Shown here: positions 3,692 to 57,690 of the stretch, one piece after another
Layout of the letters: each line of letters opens with the position of its first letter
Position numbering within the stretch: the first letter of the stretch is position 1
NCBI GenBank assembly: GCA_030652995.1
Contig: JAUSAG010000017.1
Span: 1 to 64,000, forward strand
Length of the DNA stretch: 64,000 bases
DNA from: Methylotenera sp.
GTDB taxonomy: Bacteria; Pseudomonadota; Gammaproteobacteria; Burkholderiales; Methylophilaceae
Direction of reading: 5' to 3'
The notes under the pieces: generated by a model
What the model saw: only the letters and a program-made list of their open reading frames with translations
Databases searched by the model: none
What the model was told of the DNA's origin: nothing
Made by a program: the position numbers and the translations under genes

Positions 3692-4408
3692 ATGCCTGAT
3701 GAAAGCCTCATACAGCTCAATGACATAAACCGCACTTTTACACTCGGCGATAGCCAGGTGTATGCTTTGCGTCATGTAGATTTAAATATCACGCGCGGCG
3801 AATATATCGCAGTCATGGGGCCGTCTGGTTCTGGGAAATCCACCTTGCTTAATTTGGTTGGATTGTTAGATCGTGCTGATAGCGGTACTTATAGGCTGGA
3901 AGGGCGCGATGTGACTACACTTAACCCGAATGAGCAGGCCCGGGTGCGTAGCGAACGCATTGGCTTTATATTTCAGAGTTTTCACCTGGTGCCGCGTCTT
4001 ACTGCCGCTGCAAATATCGAGCTGCCGCTTACATTGGCTGGCATGCCCTCGGCTGAACGTGCAAAGCGCGTATCGCAGGCGCTTAAAGAGTATGGGTTAA
4101 CCGATAGAGCGCATCATCGGCCTAATGAACTTTCTGGCGGGCAGAGGCAACGCGTTGCCATTGCCCGCGCTACCATACTGCGCCCAGCGGTGCTGCTGGC
4201 AGATGAACCTACCGGCAACCTAGACCGTGTTACAGGTGAAGAAGTGGTGCGGTTGCTAGAATCGCTGAATGCGCAGGGCATGACGCTGATTGTCGTGACG
4301 CATGATCATGCGCTTGGAGCGCGTGCGCGGCGCCAAATAAGAATGGAAGATGGCGGTGTTGTGAGTGATGTTACCAATCCACCAAATCAACCAAATCGAC
4401 CAACTTAA
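3692..4408 (+). CDS. ABC transporter ATP-binding protein (MacB/LolD type)
   Basis: The 238-residue ATPase powers the exporter encoded around it. Walker A is GPSGSGKST at 43-51, the signature LSGGQRQR is at 147-154, and Walker B ends with the catalytic Glu at 172 in [10 protein letters not shown], followed by a switch His in Val-Thr-His-Asp. The Gly-Asn-Leu-Asp D-loop is typical of the MacB/LolD/FtsE group. The ATP-binding domain is separate from the permease here, unlike E. coli MacB where they are fused. It lies 6 bases after the adaptor gene and 25 bases before the first permease. Confidence 0.9.
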
Positions 4409-55804: not shown

Positions 55805-55999
55805 TTATTCCGACTCGTCTATCCAGGCGAGTTGTATTGCCTCTAAAATCCGTTCACCGCATTTTTCAGAGACGTCATCAAAACCTTCTAAATCGAGTAC
55901 CCACTGCATTAGATCGGTAAAGCGGATGGATTTTGGATCAATCTCTGGGTGCTTATCATATAACGCTTCAGCGATAGCTTGGCTTTCGGTCCATTTCAT
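55805..55999 (-). CDS. iscX: IscX (YfhJ) iron-sulfur cluster assembly regulator
   Basis: The 64-residue acidic protein matches IscX: Met-Lys-Trp-Thr-Glu-Ser at the start, then Ala-Glu-Ala-Leu-Tyr, Asp-Pro-Lys-Ser-Ile-Arg-Phe-Thr-Asp-Leu and Trp-Val-Leu. It modulates IscS activity with frataxin in E. coli. The start at 55999 is chosen because the family begins there and AAGGA lies about 10 bases upstream; the longer frame to 56116 adds 39 unrelated residues. It is isolated here, with no isc genes nearby. Confidence 0.9.
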   Translation of the reverse strand: MKWTESQAIAEALYDKHPEIDPKSIRFTDLMQWVLDLEGFDDVSEKCGERILEAIQLAWIDESE

Positions 56000-56100: not shown

Positions 56101-56138
56101 ACAAAAAAACCCGCAACTCTTTTGAGGAGATTGCGGGT
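56101..56138 (-). terminator. Rho-independent terminator of an orphan minus-strand transcript
   Basis: Read on the minus strand, ACCCGCAA (56138-56131) pairs with TTGCGGGT (56116-56109), with an inner CTC/GAG helix, then seven T residues (56109-56103). No minus-strand gene lies to its right before glyA. Confidence 0.8.
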
Positions 56139-56165
56139 AAGAGAGCACAATTGGAGATATGCTTA
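56102..56165 (-). ncRNA. Candidate small RNA (about 64 nt) between iscX and glyA
   Basis: A sigma-54-type promoter and a terminator are correctly spaced and oriented, with no start codon or ribosome site between them. The predicted RNA has an unpaired 5' half with AUCUCC and CUCUCUU stretches and a terminator hairpin with a UCUC bulge. These could pair with Shine-Dalgarno sequences of target mRNAs. I recognise no known RNA family. The call is inference from promoter and terminator. Confidence 0.55.
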
Positions 56166-56172
56166 GTAAACT

Positions 56173-56193
56173 ATATGCAAATTGAGTGCCAAT
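56173..56193 (-). promoter_or_regulatory. Sigma-54 (-24/-12) promoter on the minus strand
   Basis: Reading leftward, TTGGCAC and TTGCAT lie at the exact spacing: GG at 56190-56189 (-25/-24) and GC at 56178-56177 (-13/-12), 12 bp apart. Only the G after TGGCAC differs from consensus. Transcription should start near 56165. Upstream dyads (56255-56267 and 56300-56349) are at enhancer-like distances. Confidence 0.7.
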
Positions 56194-56299
56194 TAAATAA
56201 CTCATATTATTCAATGGGTTGATATTTTTAGGTGAACGTTGCTGCTTTGAAATCAACCAGATTGGTTAATTTCAGCCACCAATTTGTACTTAGGGTTGA

Positions 56300-56349
56300 G
56301 GTTAAGGTGCTTTTTAGGCAAAAACATATTGGCATGTCGTGCCTTAACC
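56300..56349. repeat. Inverted repeat in the glyA upstream region
   Basis: GGTTAAGG (56300-56307) and CCTTAACC (56342-56349) are exact inverted copies around 34 bases. It lies upstream of the likely glyA promoter and about 160 bp from the minus-strand transcription start. A smaller dyad, AACCA-GAT-TGGTT, is at 56255-56267. Confidence 0.5.
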
Positions 56350-56415
56350 TTGCTGAATTGACGTGGTAAAATGCATGCTATTCTTTTTATTTAAATATCT
56401 GGAAAACTAAACATC

Positions 56416-57690
56416 ATGTCACAAGCGCCATCAAACACTGCTCCATTTAACTACGCAAATACCCTAAACCAAGCTGATCCAGCCTTATGGGGCATGATAG
56501 AGCAAGAAGTTGTGCGTCAGCATGAGCATATTGAATTGATTGCTTCTGAAAACTACACCAGCCCTGCGGTGATGCAGGCACAGGGTTCTCAGTTGACTAA
56601 TAAATACGCTGAAGGCTACCCAGGCAAACGTTTTTATGGCGGTTGCGAGTTTGTCGATCAAGTGGAGCACTTGGCGATTGACCGCTTAAAAGCGCTTTAT
56701 GGCGCAGAGTATGCTAACGTGCAGCCGCATTCAGGTTCACAGGCAAATCAAGCGGTTTATTTTTCTATTCTAAAGCCTGGTGACACCGTAATGGGTATGA
56801 ACTTAGGTCACGGTGGGCATTTAACGCATGGTTCCCCAGCCAACCTTTCAGGAAAATTATTTAATATCGTGCCTTACGGTTTGAATGACAAGGAAGAGAT
56901 TGATTACGATGAAATGGAGCGCATTGCCGTTGAATGTAAGCCTAAGTTGTTAATTGGTGGGGCATCTGCATACGCGTTACGTTTTGATTGGGCGCGCATG
57001 GCGGAAATTGCGAAAAAAGTAGGCGCATATTTTATGGTGGACATGGCGCATTATTCAGGTTTGATTGCGGCCGGCGTTTACCCAAACCCAGTGCCGCATG
57101 CAGACTTTGTAACATCAACCACGCATAAAACTTTACGCGGCCCACGTGGCGGCATTATTCTGGCCAAAGCTGAGTTCGAGAAATCAATCAATTCAAATGT
57201 GTTTCCAAGTCTGCAAGGTGGCCCATTGATGCATGTAATAGCTGCAAAAGCGACTGCGTTTTTAGAGGCGTCACAACCATCGTTTAAAACCTATCAGGAA
57301 CAAGTGATTAAAAATGCACAGGCAATGGCTGAAACATTGACTGCTCGTGGTTTACGTATTATTTCTGGCCGTACTGAATCACACATGTTTTTGGTGGATT
57401 TACGTCCTAAAGGGTTAACTGGTAAAGCGGCAGATGCGGCGCTTGGTTTGGCGCATATCACGGTCAATAAAAACTCAATCCCGAATGATCCTGAGAGCCC
57501 GTTTGTGACTTCAGGTATTCGTATCGGTGCGCCGGCCATCACGACACGCGGCTTTAAAGAAGAGGAAGCAAAGTTGGTTGCGAATCTGATTGCCGATGTG
57601 CTGGATAATCCAGCCGATGAGGCGGTGATTGCAGCAACTAAGGCTAAAGTACATGCGTTGACGGCGCACTTCCCGGTTTATCAAGGCTAA
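56416..57690 (+). CDS. glyA: Serine hydroxymethyltransferase
   Basis: The 424-residue PLP enzyme converts serine and tetrahydrofolate to glycine and methylene-tetrahydrofolate, the main one-carbon supply. The PLP lysine is Lys238 in Thr-Thr-Thr-His-Lys-Thr. The N-terminal His-Ile-Glu-Leu-Ile-Ala-Ser-Glu-Asn and the Lys-Arg-Phe-Tyr-Gly-Gly-Cys block are intact. It is followed after 2 bases by nrdR. Confidence 0.97.

Follow-up and report, generated by a model that had tools for sequence, protein, structure and literature searches.

The intergenic region between iscX and glyA of Methylotenera sp. raises the question of whether it holds a regulatory RNA gene and, if so, which signal turns that gene on and what its product acts upon. 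The region lies in the window that we analyzed, i.e., the whole 64,000-nt (64-kb) stretch of DNA, and is flanked by iscX (55805..55999, minus strand; PF04384) and the divergent glyA, which encodes serine hydroxymethyltransferase (56416..57690, plus strand; PF00464). From its letters and our own scoring, a -24/-12 sigma-54 promoter, TTGGCACTCAATTTGCAT, was located on the minus strand at 56175..56192, with TTGGCAC at 56192-56186 and TTGCAT at 56180-56175. The GG (56190-56189) and GC (56178-56177) are in a register of exactly 12 bp, i.e., GG-N10-GC in a -24/-12 context (TTGGCAC..TTGCW), and both the coordinates and the register agree with a preliminary description of this DNA, in which a near-perfect promoter of this type was said to be aimed at a terminator on the same strand. 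The promoter register places the expected transcription start at ~56165, and the predicted product, hereafter copy 1, would be a small RNA of ~63 nt (56103..56165, minus strand). We consider it probable that 56192-56103 specifies a sigma-54-dependent, trans-acting sRNA of this length, one of at least two siblings, that serves as an anti-Shine-Dalgarno (anti-SD) repressor and is activated by NtrC or by an orphan activator, depending on the genus.

To gauge the chance level, GG-N10-GC sites were scored on both strands of the window with a scheme of our own. The copy-1 promoter was the sole site scoring at least 22 and, among the 14 sites scoring at least 20, the only one with a strong terminator 45-130 nt downstream. 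In 40 dimer-shuffled windows, sites scoring at least 23 occurred at a mean of 0.025, and no promoter-terminator pair arose at either of the two thresholds tried, in line with the earlier judgment that chance co-occurrence was low. The claim that no ORF lies between promoter and terminator also held, since the overlapping frames were all implausible; a small-ORF reading was rejected after inspection of a TTG extension of iscX (103 aa), a 69-aa TTG frame, and a 56-aa frame on the plus strand. The genome itself encodes rpoN, and among 187 genomes of the family rpoN was present in 177 and ntrC in 154; because both are so common, their co-occurrence with the RNA is uninformative. Judged from sequence, copy 1 looks like a sigma-54-type small RNA gene, and its dependence on RpoN is predicted.

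The 63-nt RNA was predicted to fold at -21.4 kcal/mol (z = -5.8), and none of 200 shuffled sequences folded as well. Its 3' part is an intrinsic terminator (56103..56138, minus strand) with the stem ACCCGCAA/TTGCGGGT, an inner CTC/GAG, arms at 56138-56131 and 56116-56109, and a run of seven T at 56109-56103. A simple scan had not listed this terminator because the loop limit of that scan was 8. In alignment A1, 96.4% of the terminator cells were paired, a level that none of 500 shuffles reached, and three of seven pairs showed double-sided changes (10 of 500 shuffles); the unit thus has the GC stem, U-run, and base-pair covariation of an intrinsically terminated sRNA. The 5' half, which had been described as unpaired, is instead predicted to form a 6-bp hairpin, SL1 (56144..56163, minus strand; arms 56163-56158 and 56149-56144), whose loop UCUCCAAU (56157-56150) contains UCUCC at 56153..56157. 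This motif (aSD1) corresponds to TCTCC columns that are invariant in A1. A second C/U-rich stretch (aSD2), GCUCUCUU, occupies 56139..56146 on the same strand, its first three bases falling within the SL1 stem; it is degenerate in this genome, and a frequent form among relatives is CUCCCCUU. UCUCC fell within a hairpin in 43 of 45 copy-1 minimum-energy folds vs. 47% with shuffled flanks, with all five bases unpaired in 29 of the 45 and at least four in 40. Conserved C/U-rich motifs predicted to be exposed are thus present, as for an anti-SD sRNA. The mean energy of the 5' hairpin was -2.97 vs. -2.58 in shuffles, a margin barely above them, and an alignment-free covariation test of this hairpin did not discriminate. 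Since the hairpin is also short, its support in copy 1 is its recurrence only.

The preliminary description had proposed a conservation check, naming loss of the promoter and terminator in close relatives as grounds for refutation. This check was run, and promoter, core, and terminator proved to be kept in relatives, including the two closest matching ones, which have 91% and 84% identity over the stretch. An alignment of sequences upstream of glyA yielded 16 copies with the same promoter, a AUCUCCAA core, a C-rich linker, and a terminator; the GG..GC of the promoter was unvaried in all 16, and the core varied in a few. Within the 52-genome Methylotenera genus, R1, a covariance model of copy 1, gave strong matches (E<1e-7) in 28 genomes and found no strong copy 1 in the other 24, drafts among them. 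Nineteen of these 28 copies lie beside glyA and/or iscX, four between moxR and fabA, one beside fabA, and four near none of these genes. At E<=0.001, R1 matched 76 of the 187 family genomes, spread over 6 of 24 genera, with part of this count due to the sister RNA described below. Seventeen copy-1 loci of other genera were inspected, and the protein on the enhancer side was GlyA-like by eye in 16, the contig at the remaining locus (L160) ending too early to judge. A spaced-pattern scan of named genomes, in 80 of its 119 loci, hit 48 Methylo- taxa, 13 unclassified proteobacterial sequences, and 19 that look unrelated and are probably due to chance. On these sequence data, copy 1 is a member of a real gene family. 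Two irregular loci were also seen. In G032 (L128, ~3760-3976), an insertion of ~200 bp with terminal inverted repeats splits the copy-1 promoter from the RNA, and in G063 (L121, ~1550-1703) a possible copy-1 remnant upstream of glyA retains the enhancer dyad D1 (see below), while its -24 element is gone.

A sister RNA of similar design (copy 2) was found in the same genome at G000:C37:150020-150115 (L103:2521-2616), between glgA and the convergent orn, and R1 also matched this sister weakly in many genomes. Copy-2 RNAs have in common a core, AAGCUUCUCCAAAGCU, followed by UCUCCUCCC and a terminator, from which the sister in this genome departs somewhat. A second model, R2, was built from 15 of 17 sister sequences, G112 and G068 being excluded for poor alignment. 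At E<=0.01, R2 matched 133 of the 187 family genomes and 23 of the 24 genera, a few of these matches being copy 1. The 54 genomes without a match include all 31 of g26 and 13 of the 16 of g40, two genera with small genomes (0.7-1.4 Mb); of the rest, five are among the 52 of g1 and five lie elsewhere. Across 399 genomes of the order (E<=0.001), R2 gave 14 matches, seven in the family and seven weaker ones outside it. In alignment A4, paired cells made up 97.8% of the copy-2 structure, a level reached by 0 of 500 shuffles, and 8 of 12 pairs showed double-sided changes, 7 of the 12 belonging to the terminator; in the 5' hairpin, such changes were seen at three of five pairs, in one or two sequences per pair. 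UCUCC lay within a hairpin in 15 of 17 copy-2 folds vs. 31% with shuffled flanks, with all five bases unpaired in 2 of 17 and at least four in 15. The copy 2 of this genome is one of the two whose fold leaves UCUCC outside any hairpin.

A third, longer unit (~105 nt) of sigma-54 type, with a AUCUCCUCCUC linker, was observed between amtB (PF00909) and gshA (PF08886, checked in one) in the three genomes inspected (L197, L198, and L199, near 1501-1633). Its upstream region held an NtrC dyad at p<0.02 in one of the three and at p 0.03-0.05 in the other two. Further R2 matches of ~130 nt may represent this same amtB-linked unit. Two R2 matches outside the family sit at the end of amtB; in these (L190 and L196), UCUCCCC and then a terminator stand directly at the amtB 3' end without a clear -24 element, and a 3'UTR-derived relative is a possible explanation.

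Enhancers of copy 1 were sought within 170 bp upstream, with p<0.02 per sequence taken from shuffles, uncorrected and among sequences that are related to one another. The set comprised 27 of the 28 Methylotenera copies (L099, with an interrupted promoter, was excluded) and 17 copies from other genera. In the window, a dyad that we call D1, TGGCTGAAATTAACCA (56263..56278, minus strand), has one mismatch to the consensus TGGYTGN4CARCCA, and none of 300 shuffles was as good. A second, degenerate D1-like site, TGGTTGATTTCAAAGC (56244..56259, minus strand), was seen by eye 19 bp from the first, and the tandem arrangement is also visible by eye in some relatives. D1 was present in 24 of the 27 Methylotenera copies, and its distance to the promoter block was 85-87 bp in 15 of the 27. 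An NtrC dyad was found in 2 of 27; the best NtrC match of the window's own copy 1 has four mismatches (p ~0.6). Of two dyads that had been suggested as enhancers, the one at 56248-56274, which does stand at enhancer distance, proved to be part of a conserved enhancer. For a conserved role of the other, at 56299-56350, no support was found; an inverted repeat, AGGTTAAGG/CCTTAACCT, does occupy this part of the glyA leader.

Other genera gave a different picture. The NtrC dyad TGCACYN5RGTGCA occurred in both copy-1 sequences of the Methylophilus-type genus g31 (p<0.02, at most two mismatches) and in six of seven of g39, also Methylophilus-type (at most two mismatches), where D1 occurred in none of seven. 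In g43, each dyad was present in five of eight copies, and in two of these genomes (G185 and G188) the NtrC and D1 dyads overlap with one half-site in common. No site of either type was detected at p<0.02 within 250 bp upstream of copy 2 (0 of 26). In the window's own genome, glnA is preceded by two NtrC-type dyads, CGCACATAATTAGTGCA and CGCACTTTTATGGTGCA (one and two mismatches), before a -24/-12-like site. The preliminary description had pointed to nitrogen limitation as the relevant condition, and the NtrC-type sites of other genera favor this; in Methylotenera, however, the enhancer is of another type, with glnA keeping the NtrC type.

Which protein might then read D1? Within the genome, D1 with at most one mismatch occurred 56 times vs. 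19 for the reversed pattern, several of those examined being intragenic. On contig 27, -24/-12-like sites scoring 18.8-22.5 with D1 60-90 bp before them were found at a pseudopilin operon and at the genes for a Wzy_C-type ligase, an unknown protein of 366 aa, and an NtrC-family response regulator of 481 aa. A possible sigma-54/D1 regulon, with a pseudopilin/T2SS-like operon, is visible at G000:C27:17500-52000 (L148, L149). The 481-aa response regulator, an orphan NtrC-like protein, is preceded by tandem D1 dyads phased at 21 bp before its own sigma-54-type site and is apparently autoregulated, as judged from this arrangement. It has matches in 43 of 52 Methylotenera genomes. In 30 loci examined of its 45 matches, 26 D1-like sites were found upstream vs. 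0.24 expected; at least two tandem D1 sites with a sigma-54-like site were present in 8 of the 30, and fewer than two D1-like sites in the other 22. Copy 1, too, carries D1 upstream as it stands before the activator's own promoter. From this association, we infer that the orphan regulator binds D1. An assignment of this regulator to PrsR, the PEP-CTERM regulator, was considered and rejected, because it scored 366.6 vs. a cut-off of 502.6; its scores were also too low for AtoC, for NtrC, and for the remaining equivalogs compared.

Considering the enhancer series, the presence of D1 before the activator, and the NtrC-type glnA, the input of copy 1 appears to be split, with NtrC acting in some genera and the orphan activator in Methylotenera. 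The copy-1 activator would probably be NtrC in Methylophilus-type genera, responding to nitrogen limitation, and in Methylotenera probably the orphan NtrC-like response regulator using TGGYTG-N4-CARCCA. A more tentative proposal, which we hold to be possible if somewhat short of an even chance, is that the enhancer was handed over in place: the right half of TGCACCA-N3-TGGTKCA would have become the left half of TGGTTC..GCCA for the other activator, the overlap being kept in G185 and G188, and copy 1 would now answer to nitrogen in Methylophilus-type genera and to a surface-linked signal in Methylotenera.

With regard to function, we propose that an enhancer-binding protein at the upstream dyads would activate sigma-54 RNA polymerase, and that the RNA would display UCUCC in its hairpin loop (aSD1) and the C-rich linker (aSD2). 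Both would pair with the Shine-Dalgarno regions of several mRNAs and lower their translation, probably with the help of Hfq, for which the U-rich tail is the only feature. The RNA would likely serve to readjust metabolism broadly in response to a signal that is nutritional or related to surfaces. Shine-Dalgarno sequences are complementary to UCUCC and to CUCCCC/UCUCCUCCC, and translational repression of several mRNAs is suggested by these motifs together with an arrangement that is as in AbcR1/2 and close to that of the Neisseria siblings (see below). The pattern TTGGAGA-N3-9-ATG occurred 32 times in this genome (reversed control 16) and 45 times in G136 (reversed control 10), one of these 77 matches (G000:C37:150051-150066) being the sister RNA itself. 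The 50 matches at starts of frames of at least 45 aa (19 and 31, respectively) yielded three orthologue pairs, i.e., ribosome recycling factor (PF01765), a PQQ methanol/ethanol-type dehydrogenase, and a 161-aa unknown protein. The PQQ dehydrogenase, the most interesting of these candidates, holds CUUUGGAGA in its start region in both genomes. This sequence is the complement of UCUCCAAAG, which was read in copy 2 of G000 and of the related G137. By duplex energy, however, the dehydrogenase ranks 22 of 168 mechanically called starts and is not singled out, so that target prediction is weak.

Other explanations must be weighed against this reading; their probabilities overlap with that of the preferred one and do not have to add up with it to one. 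Since target prediction did not single out mRNAs, and since short, highly structured, multi-copy siblings with a conserved loop are also what a decoy would look like, a sigma-54 sRNA could titrate a protein, like CrcZ or the CsrA sponges, rather than pair with mRNA. CsrA decoys carry GGA and CrcZ an A-rich Hfq/Crc motif, whereas the conserved motif here, UCUCC/CUCCCC, is neither and complements the Shine-Dalgarno sequence, and we regard titration as rather unlikely. More serious, yet still unlikely in our estimation, is that NtrC itself activates Methylotenera copy 1 with a changed DNA preference, D1 being a diverged NtrC site. NtrC (TIGR01818) is present in the genome, and the two dyads overlap with half-sites in common in a sister genus; however, glnA of the same genome retains NtrC-type dyads, and D1 precedes the orphan activator, the pseudopilin operon, and other genes of contig 27.

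The position of 19 of the 28 Methylotenera copies next to glyA and/or iscX could instead indicate a sigma-54-driven leader, whose conditional terminator would allow read-through into iscX or downstream genes. We find this very improbable: nine of the 28 copies are elsewhere (four between moxR and fabA, one beside fabA, four near none of the four genes), copy 2 ends before a convergent orn gene, and what the copies have in common is promoter, RNA, and terminator, with no downstream gene. A leader or attenuator of iscX was rejected on this genomic context. We give even less credence to a relic promoter at a locus that is silent in this strain. Such decay is conceivable given that G063 lost the -24 element and kept D1, and that G032 carries ~200 bp between promoter and RNA, but the window's own promoter, core, and terminator are intact, as they also are in the two closest matching relatives. 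A sigma-54-dependent anti-SD sRNA remains the reading that we prefer.

Several known systems resemble parts of this arrangement. Qrr1-5 of Vibrio and GlmY are sRNAs turned on by an NtrC-family activator with sigma-54, and the Qrr RNAs are siblings; both systems belong to Gammaproteobacteria and differ from the present RNAs in sequence, seed, and targets. At gathering score, Rfam returned nothing in the window beyond three tRNAs and nothing in 10 related loci; AbcR (alpha-r15) was accordingly matched neither by the window unit nor by these loci, and four low matches in a 501-base stretch (E 0.84-2.1) were discarded as far below gathering scores. AbcR1 and AbcR2 are two homologous sRNAs, differentially transcribed, with transport and metabolic targets, and they have aSD1 in a 5' hairpin loop, aSD2 between stem-loops, and a terminator; mutational analysis showed that each of the two motifs acts on targets of its own. 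They differ in length (114-121 nt), tandem genes, control by LsrB and RpoH1, and alphaproteobacterial host (PMC8844928). NmsRA/NmsRB of Neisseria (NgncR_162/163) are likewise siblings; they carry two UC-rich anti-SD regions, placed in a loop and between stem-loops, and repress TCA-cycle enzymes; unlike the present RNAs they have three stem-loops, tandem genes, and -35/-10 promoters under RelA influence, with no sigma-54 in the text available (PMC5362039). NrsZ and GlnZ are RpoN/NtrC-regulon sRNAs tied to nitrogen, but NrsZ lies downstream of ntrBC and GlnZ derives from the glnA 3'UTR, and the accessible part of the source describes no UCUCC-loop siblings (PMC9731577). The four Caulobacter siblings SisA-D have a common anti-SD 10-mer and differ in expression; their promoters lack common motifs, and the available text reports no sigma-54 control (PMC12559287). 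NcS25 was rejected as a relative, its expression being unchanged under nitrogen depletion and no upstream sigma-54 motif being reported in the portions available (PMC10117139). A word search of the accessible text of a Herbaspirillum sRNA paper returned no sigma 54, RpoN, NtrC, nitrogen limitation, or amtB (PMC7011215). In the open literature searched, we found no publication on this RNA family and, by titles and the starts of abstracts, no sRNA paper on these methylotrophs, which agrees, as does Rfam, with the initial statement that no described RNA has such an arrangement.

Sibling RNAs of the anti-SD type are already known, as are sRNAs under sigma-54; their combination and the enhancer series look new. 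With this finding, an ecologically important group of methylotrophs gains sibling regulatory RNAs that occur nearly throughout the family. The enhancer series offers concrete, testable intermediates for the swapping of a regulatory input without gene loss. If the proposed function is true, sigma-54 would front a broad anti-Shine-Dalgarno repression, i.e., a fast cut of carbon metabolism when another nutrient is short.
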